The position numbers and the translations under genes are program-made. A stretch of DNA of 64,000 nt. Origin: Pseudooceanicola marinus (GTDB lineage Bacteria > Pseudomonadota > Alphaproteobacteria > Rhodobacterales > Rhodobacteraceae). The DNA lies in the NCBI RefSeq assembly GCF_002786295.1, contig NZ_PGTC01000029.1, forward strand, positions 64,064 through 128,063, in the 5' to 3' direction. This document shows positions 58,553 to 64,000 of the stretch, piece by piece. The stretch's first letter is position 1, and each line of letters opens with the position of its first letter. Below the pieces are notes generated by a model that saw only the letters and a program-made list of their open reading frames with translations, did not search any database and had not been told where the DNA came from.

Positions 58553-59121
58553 CGTCTCACTTCCATCTCTGTTGCCGCCTCTTGCAGCCTGTCGTCCAGC
58601 AGGGCCAGCACCGCCGCGACGGTGCGCTCCAGCGGGCCCGAATTGTCCAGTTCCACCACGTCAACGCTTTCCGGCAGGGCAAAGCCCGCCCGTGCCAGGC
58701 GCCCCGCGATCTCCTCTCGGCTTTCGCGCCCCCGCGCGGCCAGCCGGTCGGCCAGGACCTCCACGGGGGCGGTCAGGGCGACGCAGGCGAACCCCGGTAC
58801 CTTCGCCTGGGCCTCTGGCAGCACCGCGCGCGAGAGGTTCACCAACAGGTCGCGCCCCGCGGCCAGCTCGTCCAGGACCGTGGCCGGGATACCATAGTGC
58901 AGCCCATGGGCCGGCCAGGACAGCAGGAAGGCGCCCCGGGCGGCACGGGCGGCAAATTCCGCCTCGCTGACACCCTCGAACTCTTCGCCCCCGGCCTCCG
59001 ACGGTCGCGTGATGACACGCCGCACCAACCCGATGCCCGGGCGGGCGGCGGCCACCGCCTCCATCACGCTGTCCTTGCCGACGCCCGACGGCCCGACGAT
59101 GCCCAGAAGACGTCCCGCCAT
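58549..59121 (-). CDS. phnN: PhnN, ribose 1,5-bisphosphate phosphokinase
   Basis: A 190-residue P-loop kinase, guanylate-kinase-like: LGIVGPSGVGKDSVMEAV at the N terminus, RRVITRPSEAGGEEFEGVS as the nucleotide-binding region. PhnN turns ribose 1,5-bisphosphate into PRPP, recycling the C-P lyase product. It overlaps phnL by one base and phnM by four. Confidence 0.93.
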   Translation of the reverse strand: MAGRLLGIVGPSGVGKDSVMEAVAAARPGIGLVRRVITRPSEAGGEEFEGVSEAEFAARAARGAFLLSWPAHGLHYGIPATVLDELAAGRDLLVNLSRAVLPEAQAKVPGFACVALTAPVEVLADRLAARGRESREEIAGRLARAGFALPESVDVVELDNSGPLERTVAAVLALLDDRLQEAATEMEVRR

Positions 59122-59816
59122 CAGGCCACCCGCGCCGGGGTGAAGCCGGTCACGTCGACCTCGCGGTCACAGACTCGGTCGCGGGCCGGCTGATCGTGGA
59201 AAATGCCCACGATGGCCGCGCCGCGTGCCTTGGCCTCCTCGATCAGCTGCAACACCTCCTCGCGGTTCACCGCGTCGAGGCTGGCGGTCGGCTCGTCGAG
59301 CAGCAGCGCCGGGTACTGGCGGGCAAAGCCGCGGGCGATATTCACCCGCTGCTGTTCGCCGCCCGAAAACGTGGTGGGCGACAGCCCCCAGAGGCGTTCG
59401 GGGATGTTCAGCCGGGTCAGCAGGGTACGGGCGCGCTCCTGCGCCACTTCCCGGGGCAGGCCCACCGACAGCAGCGGCTCGGCCACCACCTCCAGCGTCG
59501 GCACCCGGGGCACCACCCGCAGGAACTGGCTGACGTAGCCCAGCACGGCGCGGCGCAGCGCCAGGATCTCGCGCGGCTCGGCGGTGGCGACATCGGTGCC
59601 GTCCACCAGGATCCGCCCCGAAGCGGCCAGGTAGTTGCCGTAGATCATCCGCATCAGGGTGGATTTGCCCGCCCCCGAGGCGCCGACCAGTGCCACGCAT
59701 TCGCCGGGGGCCACCGCAAGGCTCGCCCCTTCCATCACCGGAATGACCGTGCCGCCCTGGTTGTGCAGGGTGAAGGTCTTGGTCACGTTCTCGACCGAGA
59801 TCATTGCGTCCGTCAT
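59121..59816 (-). CDS. phnL: PhnL, C-P lyase ABC-type ATPase
   Basis: A 231-residue ABC ATPase. Walker A is [14 protein letters not shown], signature [15 protein letters not shown], Walker [13 protein letters not shown]. In the C-P lyase system PhnL associates with the core complex and is not known to be a membrane transporter. It lies 11 nt after phnK. Confidence 0.93.
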
Positions 59817-59827
59817 CTCATCTCTCC

Positions 59828-60631
59828 TCAGACCTGCAGGACCGAGCTGACCAGCAGCTGGGTATAGGCATGTTGCGGGTCGTCCAGCACCTGGTCGGTC
59901 AGGCCGGTTTCGACCACATGGCCGGATTTCATCACCATCAGCCGGTCCGCCAGCAGGCGGACCACGGCCAAGTCATGGGTGACGATGATGGCCGACAGGC
60001 CCATCTCTCGCACCAGCCCGCGCAGGAGATCCAGCAGGCGCGCCTGCACGCTGACGTCGAGGCCGCCCGTGGGTTCATCCATGAAGACCAGCCGCGGGCC
60101 GGTGACCAGGTTGCGCGCGATCTGCAACCGCTGGCGCATGCCGCCCGAAAAGGCCGTGGGCCGGTCGTCCATCCGATCGGCGGCGATTTCCACCCGGCCC
60201 AGCCAGTCCTCGGCCTTGGCCCGGATGTCGCCGTAGTGGCGTGCCCCCAGCCCCATCAGGCGTTCGCCCACGTTGCCGCCGGCGCTGACATTCATGCGCA
60301 GCCCCTCATGGGCGTGCTGATGCACGAAGGCCCAGTCGGTGCGCCCCAGCATGCGCCGCTCCGGCTCGCTCATGGTCACGGTATCGACCATCTGGCCCGC
60401 ACGGTCGAACAGCACCCGGCCCGTATCGGCCGCCAGGTGGCCCGCCAGGCAGTTCAGCAGGGTCGTCTTGCCCGAGCCGCTTTCACCCACGATGCCCATC
60501 ACCTCGCCCGGGTAGAGGTCGAAGGAAACCTCCTCGCAGCCGATCCGCCCGCCGTAGTATTTCGCCAGCCCCTCGACCGTCAGCAACGGCCGGTCGGTGG
60601 CGCCGGCGCGGTCCTCGATCATGTCCTTCAT
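59828..60631 (-). CDS. phnK: PhnK, C-P lyase ABC-type ATPase
   Basis: A 267-residue ABC ATPase. Walker [15 protein letters not shown], signature [15 protein letters not shown], Walker [13 protein letters not shown], switch VTHDLAV. The [22 protein letters not shown] segment is typical of PhnK, which binds the PhnJ subunit of the core. The ATG at 60631 follows a GTGAGACG leader nearly identical to that of phnM. Confidence 0.94.
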
Positions 60632-60653
60632 CGTCTCACTCTCCGTTCCGCGC

Positions 60654-61535
60654 TCAGGCTGCGCTCTCGGCCACGCCGAGGGGCCCAAGGTGCCCCGCCG
60701 CGCGACGCTCGCCGCAGAAATCCGTGTCCGAACAGACGAACATCCGCCCGCCCGCATCATCGGTGATCACCTCGTCGAGATAGCTGTCCTCCGCCCCGCA
60801 CAGGTCGCAGCAATGCTCGGCCCGCATCCGGGTGAAGGGGTAGTCCTCGAAATCGAGGCTCACGACCTCGCAATAGGGCGGCAGGGCATAGATCCGCTGC
60901 TCCCGGCCCGCGCCAAACAGCTGAATGCCCGCCATCTCCAGCTTGGGGTTGTCGAACTTGGGGATCGGGCTGGGGTCCATCACGTAGCGCCCCTCCACCT
61001 TCACCGGATAGGCATAGGCGGTGGCGATCTCGCCGTGGCGCGCGATGTCCTCGTAGAGCTTGACGTGCATCAGCCCGTATTCCTCCAGCGCATGCATCTT
61101 GCGCGTCTCCACCTCCGAGGGTTCGAGGAAGCGCAGAGGTTCCGGGATCGGCACCTGGTAGACCAGCACCTGGCCCTCGGTCAGGTCCCGTTCCGGGATC
61201 CGGTGACGGGTCTGGATGACCGTGGCCTCGGCGGTCTTTTCGGTAGTCTCAACCTGCGCCACCTTCTCGAAGAAGCGCCGGATGGACACGGCGTTGGTGG
61301 TGTCATCCGCCCCCTGGTCGATGACCTTGAAGCGGTCCTCGGGCACCATGATGGCGGCCGAGATCTGCACGCCGCCGGTGCCCCAGCCATAGGGCATGGG
61401 CATTTCGCGGCTCGCGAAAGGCACCTGGTAGCCCGGGATCGCCAGCGCCTTCAGCAGCGCGCGGCGGATCATCCGCTTGGTCTGTTCGTCGAGGTAGGCG
61501 AAATTGTACTCGCCCGCGATCTGTTCCACGCTCAT
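60654..61535 (-). CDS. phnJ: PhnJ, carbon-phosphorus lyase
   Basis: A 293-residue radical-SAM C-P bond cleaving enzyme. The four key cysteines are present near the C terminus: CDLC (two cluster ligands), then FVCSDTDFC, giving the third cluster ligand and, six residues on, the catalytic Cys equivalent to E. coli Cys272. The N terminus (NFAYLDEQTKRMIRRALLKALAIPGYQVPF) is conserved. Its start overlaps the stop of a 38-codon ORF by three bases. Confidence 0.96.
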   Translation of the reverse strand: MSVEQIAGEYNFAYLDEQTKRMIRRALLKALAIPGYQVPFASREMPMPYGWGTGGVQISAAIMVPEDRFKVIDQGADDTTNAVSIRRFFEKVAQVETTEKTAEATVIQTRHRIPERDLTEGQVLVYQVPIPEPLRFLEPSEVETRKMHALEEYGLMHVKLYEDIARHGEIATAYAYPVKVEGRYVMDPSPIPKFDNPKLEMAGIQLFGAGREQRIYALPPYCEVVSLDFEDYPFTRMRAEHCCDLCGAEDSYLDEVITDDAGGRMFVCSDTDFCGERRAAGHLGPLGVAESAA

Positions 61536-61648
61536 GCGTCCTGCTCCCGGGCGGAAGGCGCCACGCCCCCTGCCCCTATCCGATAGCCGAAAATACTCTC
61601 GCCGAAGGCTTCGGCCCGGCACGGGCCGAAAATGCAATGGCTGCTCAT
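61532..61648 (-). CDS. Candidate 38-residue small protein between phnI and phnJ
   Basis: An ATG at 61648 overlaps the phnI stop by four bases (ATGA), and its TGA overlaps the phnJ ATG by the same pattern. The peptide reads MSSHCIFGPCRAEAFGESIF and ends GYRIGAGGVAPSAREQDA. It has a Cys-x4-Cys pair and a glycine-rich tail. The standard phn operon runs phnI directly into phnJ, so this is an extra coding frame or a coupling device. I know no family for it. The double overlap is the main support for translation. Confidence 0.55.
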   Translation of the reverse strand: MSSHCIFGPCRAEAFGESIFGYRIGAGGVAPSAREQDA

Positions 61649-62754
61649 TCCGCCGCCTCCCGGCGCGCGCCCTGCTGCGCCGCATCCGCCTCGCGACGGA
61701 TCTTGCGCACCAGTTCCAGTTCCGACTGGAAATCGACGTAGTGGGGCAGCTTGATATGTTCGAGGAAGCCCGTCGCCTGGATATTGTCCGAATGGTACAG
61801 CACGAATTCCTCGTCCTGCGCCGGCGCGCCCTTGTCGTCTTCGCCCAGCTCCTTCCAACGCAGCGCCCGGTCGACCAGCGCCATGGAGATCGCCTTGCGC
61901 TCCGTCTGGCCAAAGACCAGGCCATAGCCCCGGGTGAACTGCGGCGGCTCGGTCTTGCTGCCCAGGAACTGGTTCACGGTCTCACATTCGGTGAGGGTGA
62001 TCTCGCCGACCTCGATGGCAAAGCCCAGCTCGGGGATCTCGGCCTCGACCGGGACGGTACCGATGCGAAGCTCGCCCACGAAGGGGTGGTTCTTGGCGTA
62101 GCCCCGTTGGGTGGAATAGGCCATCGACAGGACGAAGCCCTCGTCGCCCCGGGTCAGCGCCTGCAGGCGCAGCGGGCGCTCGGCGGGCAGCTCCAGAGGC
62201 TCGCGCGTCAGGTCGCCGGGCTGGTCGGCCTCGGGCGCGGGGGGCACCTCGTCCTGGATCAGACCTTCGCGGTTCAGGAACTCCGTCACCCGGGGCATCA
62301 CCGGATGCTCGGCGGCCTCCGCCGGGGGCTCGGGCCGCTCCAGCCCTTCCGCCTCTAGCGCGAAGTCCAGCAGACGGTGGGTATAGTCAAACGTCGGGCC
62401 CAGCACCTGCCCCCCCGGCACATCCTTGAAGGTGGCCGAGATGCGCCGGTCACAGGCCATCGCCCCGGTATCGACGGGCTGCGAATAGCCGAAGCGCGGC
62501 AGGGTCGTGCGATAGGCGCGGATCAGGAAAATCGCCTCGATCAGATCGCCGCGTGCCTGCTTGATCGCCAGCGCCGCCAGGTCGGGATCGTAGAGGGAGC
62601 CCTCGGCCATCACCCGGTTCACCGCCAGCGCCAGCTGTTCGCGGATCTGCGCCACCGACAGCTCGGTGACCGACACATCGCCCCGGCGTTCGTCCTCCAG
62701 CCACTCATGGGCCTTATCGATGGCCTTCTCGCCACCTTTCACTGCCACATACAT
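61645..62754 (-). CDS. phnI: PhnI, C-P lyase core subunit
   Basis: A 369-residue protein. It begins MYVAVKGGEKAIDKAHEWL, the PhnI hallmark, with RISATFKDVPGGQVLGPTFDYTHRLLDF in the middle and HYVDFQSELELVRKIRREAD near the end. PhnI with PhnL, PhnG and PhnH attaches the phosphonate to ATP in place of adenine. The start shares bases with the phnH stop. Confidence 0.95.
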   Translation of the reverse strand: MYVAVKGGEKAIDKAHEWLEDERRGDVSVTELSVAQIREQLALAVNRVMAEGSLYDPDLAALAIKQARGDLIEAIFLIRAYRTTLPRFGYSQPVDTGAMACDRRISATFKDVPGGQVLGPTFDYTHRLLDFALEAEGLERPEPPAEAAEHPVMPRVTEFLNREGLIQDEVPPAPEADQPGDLTREPLELPAERPLRLQALTRGDEGFVLSMAYSTQRGYAKNHPFVGELRIGTVPVEAEIPELGFAIEVGEITLTECETVNQFLGSKTEPPQFTRGYGLVFGQTERKAISMALVDRALRWKELGEDDKGAPAQDEEFVLYHSDNIQATGFLEHIKLPHYVDFQSELELVRKIRREADAAQQGARREAAE

Positions 62755-63350
62755 CAGGCAAGCTCCCCTTCGGCAACGCGCGTGGTGCGCGGCAGCGCCC
62801 AGAGGGTCGCGCCGTCGCAGAAATAGAAATCCAGCCCCAGCGGGAAGAGCGCCCGGTTGGCCTGGAACGGGCCCACGGCGGGCAGCTCGGCCCGGCGGCT
62901 CTCCTTGATCCCCGGCCCGACCAGTGTCACCGGCTGGGCCGCAAAGGCGCCGTCGACGATCAGCGTGGCGCTGCGGTCGGGGTACTCGGCGGTGCCGATG
63001 GCGTATTGGCCCAGATCGCCCAGGGCCTCCCAGGTGCCCAGCCCGAAGGCCGCCTCGCCCCGCGCCACCAGCGGCGCCCCGCAGTGGAAGGTGATCCAGT
63101 CGCGCACCTCCGGCCGGTCATGATCGCCCGCCAGATGCACCGGCGTTTCCGGATCGCACAGGACCAGCAGCAGGGTCGCCGCCGCCGGGCTGACCGGCGC
63201 GGGCGCCGCGCCCAGGTCTCCCAGCTTCTGTACCTCGCCGGGGCGTGCCATGACCTCCAGCGCCGCGCGGAAGGCGCGGGCCGACTGGCGCGGCGCATCC
63301 TCGAAGCCGCCCGTCAGGGCCTCGCTTGCCATTGCTCCGTTTCGGGTCAT
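62754..63350 (-). CDS. phnH: PhnH, C-P lyase core subunit
   Basis: A 198-residue subunit. GGFEDAPRQSARAFRAALEVMARPGEV at the N terminus and LVLCDPETPVHLAGDHD are typical; FYFCDGATLWALPRTTRV ends the protein. PhnH is a dimeric, PLP-transferase-like fold without PLP and belongs to the GHIJ core. The ATG at 63350 shares one base with the phnG stop. Confidence 0.94.
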   Translation of the reverse strand: MTRNGAMASEALTGGFEDAPRQSARAFRAALEVMARPGEVQKLGDLGAAPAPVSPAAATLLLVLCDPETPVHLAGDHDRPEVRDWITFHCGAPLVARGEAAFGLGTWEALGDLGQYAIGTAEYPDRSATLIVDGAFAAQPVTLVGPGIKESRRAELPAVGPFQANRALFPLGLDFYFCDGATLWALPRTTRVAEGELA

Positions 63351-63814
63351 CAGTCTTCTCCCCGTACCATGGTGAAGAAATCCACCTTCGTCTGATCGGC
63401 CCTGGTCGCCCGCGCGGCCCGGGCCGCCGTCATCTCGGCCTCCAGCGGATCCAGCAGTTTGGCCCGCAGGCGCGGGGCGTCGGCGCCCTGCATGCCCGCA
63501 TCGACCAGCGCAGCGATCTCGGCCTTCTTGCGATCCCGGCCCTGCACCATGGCATGGCCGACCGCTCCCGCTTCGGTCTTCAGCGAACAGCGCGTCACGC
63601 TCATCTCGCCCAGGTTGAAGGCCGCGCCGGTGCCCCCGGCCCGACCGCGCACCATCACGCCGCCGACTTCCGGCGCGCGCAGCCAGGTGAACCCCGCCTC
63701 GCGCCCCGCCTCGGCCCAAAGCGCCGCCAGCCGCGCCGCCGGCGCCTTCGCCAGAAGCGACATCCAGGCCTTCCGGGCCGCCTCCTCTTCCGTCAATTCC
63801 CGCCGTTCCGACAT
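63350..63814 (-). CDS. phnG: PhnG, C-P lyase core subunit
   Basis: A 154-residue subunit. RKAWMSLLAKAPAARLAALW and GAAFNLGEMSVTRCSLKTEAGAVGHAMVQGRDRKKAEIAAL are the diagnostic blocks. It is the first gene of the operon, divergent from phnF over a 106-nt region that holds palindromic operators. Confidence 0.94.
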   Translation of the reverse strand: MSERRELTEEEAARKAWMSLLAKAPAARLAALWAEAGREAGFTWLRAPEVGGVMVRGRAGGTGAAFNLGEMSVTRCSLKTEAGAVGHAMVQGRDRKKAEIAALVDAGMQGADAPRLRAKLLDPLEAEMTAARAARATRADQTKVDFFTMVRGED

Positions 63815-63828
63815 TAGACACCTTGCAG

Positions 63829-63868
63829 ATTTGTCTATCTAACTATACAACTAGACAAATCTATAGAC
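63829..63868. promoter_or_regulatory. Putative PhnF operators between phnG and phnF
   Basis: TTGTCTA (63831-63837) and TAGACAA (63852-63858) form an inverted repeat 14 nt apart, and TATAGACA (63862-63869) adds a third half-site. The AT-rich stretch stands out from GC-rich surroundings. GntR/HutC-type PhnF proteins bind such TCTAxAC-like sites. The shared position suggests control of both genes. Confidence 0.6.
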
Positions 63869-63920
63869 AGCCGCCCCGAGTCGCACAAGGCCGGGCGCCC
63901 CCGATCAGGATGAAACTTTC

Positions 63921-64000
63921 ATGACGCCTGCCGACGGCTCCCCGCCCCGCAAGACCCCACTGTGGCGTTCCATCGCGGATGCGCTGACCAATGATATCGC
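63921..64000 (+). CDS. phnF: PhnF, GntR family regulator of phn genes (partial)
   Basis: The frame from the ATG at 63921 reads MTPADGSPPRKTPLWRSIAD and ALTNDI before the window ends. LWRSIADALTNDI is the usual start of the PhnF winged helix (pattern W-x-x-I-A-x-x-L). The divergent position from phnG is standard for phnF. Only 26 codons are visible. Confidence 0.8.
   Translation, partial: MTPADGSPPRKTPLWRSIADALTNDI

Follow-up and report, generated by a model that had tools for sequence, protein, structure and literature searches.

Coupling of adjacent genes by termination-reinitiation works best at short overlaps and is enriched among the subunits of complexes, the commonest gene spacings in prokaryotes being −4, −1 and −8, and gaps of about 20 nt nearly abolish the coupling in experiments (excerpts of PMC10666635). 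Two further systems come close to the arrangement described here. The mycobacterial MIRUs, which are apparently mobile, insert at start codons and carry an internal ORF that couples to the gene at −4 (PMC12548453, in excerpt, citing Supply et al. 1997), an arrangement that likely limits the impact of the insertion (same excerpt of PMC12548453). In an engineered setting, a synthetic short nonfunctional ORF boosts the next gene (excerpt of PMC13255528). Relay ORFs in phn operons are not reported among the matches listed in the literature searched, in which the MIRU passage is nearest in kind.

The window, a stretch of 64,000 nt from Pseudooceanicola marinus, contains a 38-codon ORF between phnI and phnJ. 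Its ATGA overlaps with the phnI stop and the phnJ start, pointed out in the preliminary description, are confirmed by the sequence (Table 1). We consider it very likely that the ORF serves as a relay frame, through which termination-reinitiation still couples phnJ to phnI, with selection acting on the open frame and its end point rather than on the peptide. The locus shares with termination-reinitiation the same −4/−1/−8 spacings, the membership of both genes in one complex and the need for a short distance (excerpts of PMC10666635 and PMC6728339): the window ORF lies at −4 on both sides, and 52 of 67 comparable inserts in relatives (defined below) lie at −4, −1 or −8. However, two real genes touch in the systems of PMC10666635, as excerpted, whereas the bridge in these operons is a frame, 16 to 210 codons long, that is not conserved. 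As in the synthetic case, an upstream frame encoding a nonsense peptide would promote translation of the target ORF; that frame was engineered, whereas the present one is natural and lies between two coupled genes (excerpt of PMC13255528).

Table 1. Features at the phnI-phnJ junction, in positions of the window.
Feature	Position	Strand	Details
Putative relay ORF	61532-61648	minus	38 codons, MSSHCIFGPCRAEAFGESIFGYRIGAGGVAPSAREQDA; same-length open frame in 3 further species of the genus
phnI	61645-62754	minus	369 codons; PF05861, E 2.4e-165
phnJ	60654-61535	minus	293 codons; PF06007, E 4.2e-142
ATGA, overlap of phnI stop and relay start	61645-61648	minus	sequence
ATGA, overlap of relay stop and phnJ start	61532-61535	minus	sequence
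GGGAGG, Shine-Dalgarno-like, within the phnI 3' end, 7 nt upstream of the relay ATG	61656-61661	minus	sequence
GGGAG, Shine-Dalgarno-like, upstream of phnJ	61544-61548	minus	sequence
Dispersed-repeat part of the ORF (nt 17-91)	61558-61632	minus	longest single match, 77% identity; most matches shorter
Perfect 10-bp hairpin, first half of the repeat	61609-61631	minus	stem sequence varies between copies
Repeat core GCCTTCGGCGAGAGTATTT	61591-61609	minus	matches in 119/149 sampled family genomes, ≤2 mismatches
Terminator-like site within the repeat	61621-61600	minus	1 found vs 0.2 expected

An ORF with a fitting start, Shine-Dalgarno motif and stop could encode a genuine small protein assisting PhnJ or the C-P lyase core complex, and the preliminary description had named as possible a small accessory in handling the cluster or assembling the complex. 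The same 38-codon ORF is intact in three other species of the genus (G018, G003 and G017; the window genome is G000), and by codon score its own frame ranks first (1.5 versus −23.1 and −6.7 in the other two), although this value is low for a gene (our home-made caller required >10, with start terms added). Against this, pN/pS of the peptide is 0.57-1.38 for the six pairs among the four species (a short sequence with wide error), giving no sign of purifying selection on the frame as a peptide; in phnJ of the same species pairs, 84-96% of the differences fall at third positions. The spacer diverges more than its flanks, with 86.3% identity between G000 and G018 versus 94.0% in phnI and 95.5% in phnJ (over 600 nt for phnJ; phnI comparisons between the pairs G000/G018 and G003/G017 were left out as out of register, with about 32% identity and an indel). 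The Cys-x4-Cys pattern noted earlier is present in the letters of the window and survives among relatives in its second half: residue 10 is Cys in all four species with the ORF, but residue 5 is Cys in the window only and Arg in the three relatives (MNGNR, MSGKR, MNGER). Up to two thirds of the ORF, moreover, matches a dispersed repeat, and at E ≤ 1 neither Pfam nor NCBIfam matches the peptide. Among the 20 genus genomes with phnJ, the ORF is present in 4, the other 16 having different peptides or different genes at the site; one of the 16 (G010) shares the first ~28, repeat-derived codons and differs in the rest. On pN/pS, Cys5 and repeat content we rejected a conserved small protein, and a functional accessory is very improbable; weak selection may still act on the peptide, the sequence being short. 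Other kinds of element were sought too: across 59000-64000, Rfam has no match close to the ORF even when E values up to 1 are allowed, the stability of the whole ORF as RNA equals that of shuffles (z 0.02), and no promoter-like site was found in 61400-61800.

The phnI-phnJ junction was then compared across relatives in two sets. The first comprised 22 genus genomes, 20 of them with phnJ, plus 80 named loci, 78 with phnI too, giving 98 junctions, of which 29 are direct −4 overlaps and 69 carry an insert. For the second, fetched after the pattern was seen, phnJ was found in 171 of 345 family genomes and 102 places were taken (30 loci and 72 more); 95 were parsed, 8 repeated the first set, and of the 87 new junctions, 54 carry an insert and 33 are direct, 32 of them at −4 and one at +5. 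The seven second-set junctions that had no start by rule, inspected afterwards, were five direct overlaps, one junction open in frame (L282) and one failure (L283). Over both sets of Rhodobacteraceae, 62 of 185 junctions are direct (one at +5) and 123 are split by unrelated DNA. Because 15 of 21 loci in other alphaproteobacterial families show a direct −4 phnI/phnJ overlap, this is probably the ancestral state.

To describe the inserts, we use relay frame for the reading frame opened by the ATGA at the phnI stop and followed towards phnJ. Among the 49 inserts set apart as genes, a Pfam scan recognised a HAD hydrolase in 42, a glyoxalase in 3, and a pyridoxamine oxidase, an EamA transporter and a histidine phosphatase in one each; the last (L348) had no match. 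Among 65 other relay-frame peptides of at least 20 codons, DUF559 lies in frame in 8, with a related nuclease model on 4 of the 8, and the remaining peptides have no Pfam match at E ≤ 0.01; four relays of fewer than 20 codons and five in-frame relays were outside the scan. The inserts without a Pfam-recognised sense gene number 67 (40 in the first set and 27 in the second), with L348 counted in and the eight DUF559 cases counted out. They fall into 52 sequence clusters, 48 of them single sequences; one cluster of 12 inserts holds the repeat and includes a member from a Yoonia (L115), and the insert of G019 has equal length and identical first letters to that of Oceanicola sp. 22II-s10i (L160).

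Several kinds of insert stand out in their own right. The commonest is a HAD-hydrolase gene of about 200 codons (e.g., L108, L126, L137, L140, L172, G005, G008), which as a single gene with −4 overlaps to both phnI and phnJ occurs at 19 first-set loci and may represent a genuine additional function of C-P lyase operons. In L120, L121, L134, L148, L151, L161, L168 and L169 the insert resembles, by eye, a small opposite-strand gene whose Gly/Asp-rich tail abuts the phnI stop. DUF559 in the relay frame is found in G006, G009, L184, L290, L301, L319, L359 and L362, in several of them after a palindromic repeat (by eye) through which the frame runs too.

In the 67 inserts without a recognised gene, the relay frame reaches phnJ 61 times (38/40 in the first set, 23/27 in the second), stopping between −14 and +1 nt from the phnJ start in 56 and running into phnJ in frame in 5. 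The end spacings are −4 in 29 inserts, −8 in 19, −1 in 4, −14 in 2 and +1 in 2, and the median relay length is 74 codons. With clustering as a partial correction for common descent, 47 of the 52 clusters contain a relay. Over 5314 codons per frame in the 67 inserts, the relay frame holds 28 stops versus 113 and 107 in the other two frames (first set, 6 vs 64 and 56; second set, 22 vs 49 and 51), and it is stop-free in 60 inserts versus 16 and 29 (p 7e-15). The six failures are G001, L175, L285, L295, L348 and L366, of which L285 passes with a GTG start; L302, counted as a success, has ATAA at the phnI stop and hence no start codon there. With genic inserts included, 109 of all 123 inserts are bridged and 14 are unbridged, and therefore coupling is not strictly required. 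The comparative evidence strongly supports the alternative offered in the preliminary description, carriage of ribosomes from phnI to phnJ. A spacing that varies freely without a reading frame, which that description had named as evidence to the contrary, is the opposite of what was seen: the spacers span tens to hundreds of bases and keep a frame to phnJ in 61 of the 67 inserts. Selection thus seems to preserve the openness and end points of the frame and not the peptide sequence, with the caveat that antisense-coding stretches can be stop-poor in one frame for other reasons.

The start of phnJ varies with the insert. In a phase 1 insert, the relay is ended by ATGA or TGATG; in a phase 0 insert, ATGA cannot end the relay and ATGTCTGA does, at −8; in phase 2, a relay without stops continues into PhnJ. 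Correspondingly, ATGTCTGA/ATGCCTGA phnJ starts coincide with phase 0 in 19 of 21 inserts, and all other starts in 7 of 46 (p 4e-9). The ATGTCTGA start is absent from the 29 direct first-set junctions and from the 370 genes called across 400 kb of the window's own genome. The type of phnJ start suits the phase of the insert. A Shine-Dalgarno-like motif of at least 4 bases precedes the phnI-stop ATG in 60 of 67 inserts and at all 62 direct junctions; before phnJ it is found in 27 of 67 inserts and absent in 40, versus 7 of 67 lacking it before the phnI-stop ATG.

Could such frames arise by chance? On this view, spacers rich in G+C are often open, and a frame that crosses one would end close to phnJ in any case. 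Dinucleotide shuffles of the window spacer and of its three relatives still leave the frame open in 40-52% of trials, so that openness over 38 codons is by itself unsurprising, and once the phnJ start is reached, several phases yield a nearby stop. The window spacer by itself is weak evidence, and the case rests on the family-wide comparison. There, the other two frames hold about four times more stops, the pattern recurs in the second set, the start follows the phase (p as above), and the base rate is low: of 154 same-strand gaps of 30-620 nt in 400 kb of the window's genome, 24 stay open in that phase as far as the next start, as do 5 of the 16 in which ATGA or GTGA overlaps the stop (genes called by a home-made gene caller). 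Chance alone is exceedingly improbable as an explanation; a double ATGA in the window, combined with equally open frames at the majority of the other phnI-phnJ junctions, is far beyond it.

Other junctions of the phn operon were examined in the same way. A gap of at least 30 nt occurs in 1 of 52 phnG-phnH junctions and in 0 of 84 phnH-phnI junctions. The phnK-phnL gaps of at least 30 nt in first-set operons are an unclean control, being open in 17 of 40 regardless of the start codon; with ATG or GTG at −4, 10 of 19 are open. The script used for them finds 57 of 67 phnI-phnJ gaps open, genic inserts included. The phnJ-phnK junction, where 7 of 8 looked relayed, was dropped as support, as 3 long inserts resemble one VOC-like gene and several starts are unclear. 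By eye, the phnJ-phnK junctions of L126, L138, L144, L172 and L180 contain relay-like frames or the VOC-like gene.

The DNA that the window ORF traverses belongs in large part to a dispersed repeat. As a peptide query against its own genome, the ORF gave 11 matches including itself, some with stops; as a 117-nt query it gave at least 42 matches at E ≤ 10 including itself, scoring having covered 40 of 81 candidates, and the 41 beyond the self-match each cover part of the ORF. The pattern GCGAGAGTATTTTCGGC at ≤3 mismatches has 67 matches in this genome versus 6 for the reversed control, and the core GCCTYCGGCGRGAGTATTT at ≤3 mismatches has 71 versus 5 for the control; at ≤2 mismatches, the core reaches up to 156 matches per genome among the sampled family genomes (controls, 0 to 4). 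Of 55 own-genome copies with ≤2 mismatches, 53 were inspected, the phn copy and one other being left out. A stem of at least 6 bp lies just upstream of the core in 34 of the 53; the corresponding rates are 4.7% at random places and 7.3% when the upstream stretches are base-shuffled. The stems vary in sequence among copies, and core positions 5 and 11 hold C and G in 42 copies and T and A in 11, with no mixed combination. Compared with shuffles, the RNA structure of the 61-nt repeat part has a z of −1.0. The window copy has no Rfam match, and the literature searched contains no named repeat of this kind among the matches listed, which is not proof of absence.

Placement of the repeat was tabulated in 54 rows (53 distinct copies, one site appearing twice, the phn copy excluded; genes from the home-made caller). 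In 44 rows the copy lies downstream of a co-oriented gene 3' end, 29 of these before a convergent gene, and the upstream stops at the 44 are ATGA in 0, GTGA in 2 and TTGA in 3; preferential insertion at coupling sites was not seen among the 54 own-genome rows. The repeat looks like a 3'-end element, perhaps terminator-like; the phn copy lies inside an operon instead. An untranslated copy in that position might stop transcription, and the terminator-like site within it (Table 1) adds to an account based on polarity, in which the frame is kept open so that ribosomes on the mRNA guard against decay and against termination, Rho-dependent or intrinsic, and not for delivery to phnJ. Such protection, however, would tolerate a relay ending tens of bases short of phnJ, whereas 56 of 67 end within −14 to +1, the great majority at the three common spacings, and the phnJ start follows the phase of the insert. 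We regard polarity in place of delivery as unlikely. The two may nevertheless act together, and keeping ribosomes on hairpins otherwise able to end transcription may be a second benefit.

Ribosome delivery by termination-reinitiation, the reading we prefer, suggests the following course. At the ancestral junction, a direct 4-nt ATGA overlap would have coupled translation of phnJ to that of phnI by termination and reinitiation. Later, DNA containing the dispersed hairpin repeat would have come to occupy the junction; because gaps of about 20 nt almost abolish coupling, its 109 nt would uncouple phnJ unless bridged. A ribosome finishing phnI would restart at the same ATGA, aided by the Shine-Dalgarno motif in the phnI 3' end, read 38 meaningless codons through the hairpins, stop at the second ATGA and restart on phnJ, while selection would act to keep the frame free of stops and ending at phnJ rather than to conserve the peptide. 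We infer each of these elements, namely translation of the ORF, reinitiation as the mechanism, the ancestral direct overlap and the later arrival of DNA, and PhnJ would by the same inference depend on translation of the relay.

By arrangement, this resembles the MIRUs: a multi-copy interspersed repeat (here 67 core matches versus 6, and 119 of 149 family genomes) is traversed by an ORF coupled to the downstream gene by 4 nt, as ATGA. The differences are that the MIRUs belong to another phylum, that the other own-genome copies inspected here lie mostly behind gene 3' ends, and that between phnI and phnJ a relay persists across many unrelated inserts, also by −8, −1 and in-frame solutions. On balance we lean towards viewing the junction as a natural insertion experiment, in which unrelated DNA has repeatedly entered one coupling site and continuity has been kept or rebuilt by three phase-dependent solutions (ATGA or TGATG in phase 1, a ATGTCTGA-type start in phase 0 and an in-frame PhnJ extension in phase 2).

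If this is true, coupling of PhnI and PhnJ synthesis, not any gene at the junction, would be a trait under selection in this operon, and bridging ORFs without a coding role would give bacterial operons a general means of absorbing insertions. An annotation puzzle would then become a test of the strength of selection on translational coupling. Many inserts at one junction, with unrelated peptides, an open frame and a phase-suited phnJ start, make an unusually clean comparative case that selection may act on ribosome delivery itself and, for the C-P lyase operon in marine bacteria, yield a clear bench-testable prediction. They also carry a warning that small ORFs with a gene-like start, a Shine-Dalgarno motif and double overlaps need not encode functional peptides.

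Two minor observations concern other loci. Four genomes of the genus (G010, G017, G003 and G001; loci L101-L104) have a second, diverged phnI-phnJ pair of about 41-46% identity, with a direct −4 overlap. Three short frames on contig C10 of the window's own genome (G000), near positions 262890, 383866 and 390032, are bridging candidates: they are 36, 16 and 44 codons long, and each has ATGA at the preceding stop and lies at −4 to the called start that follows.
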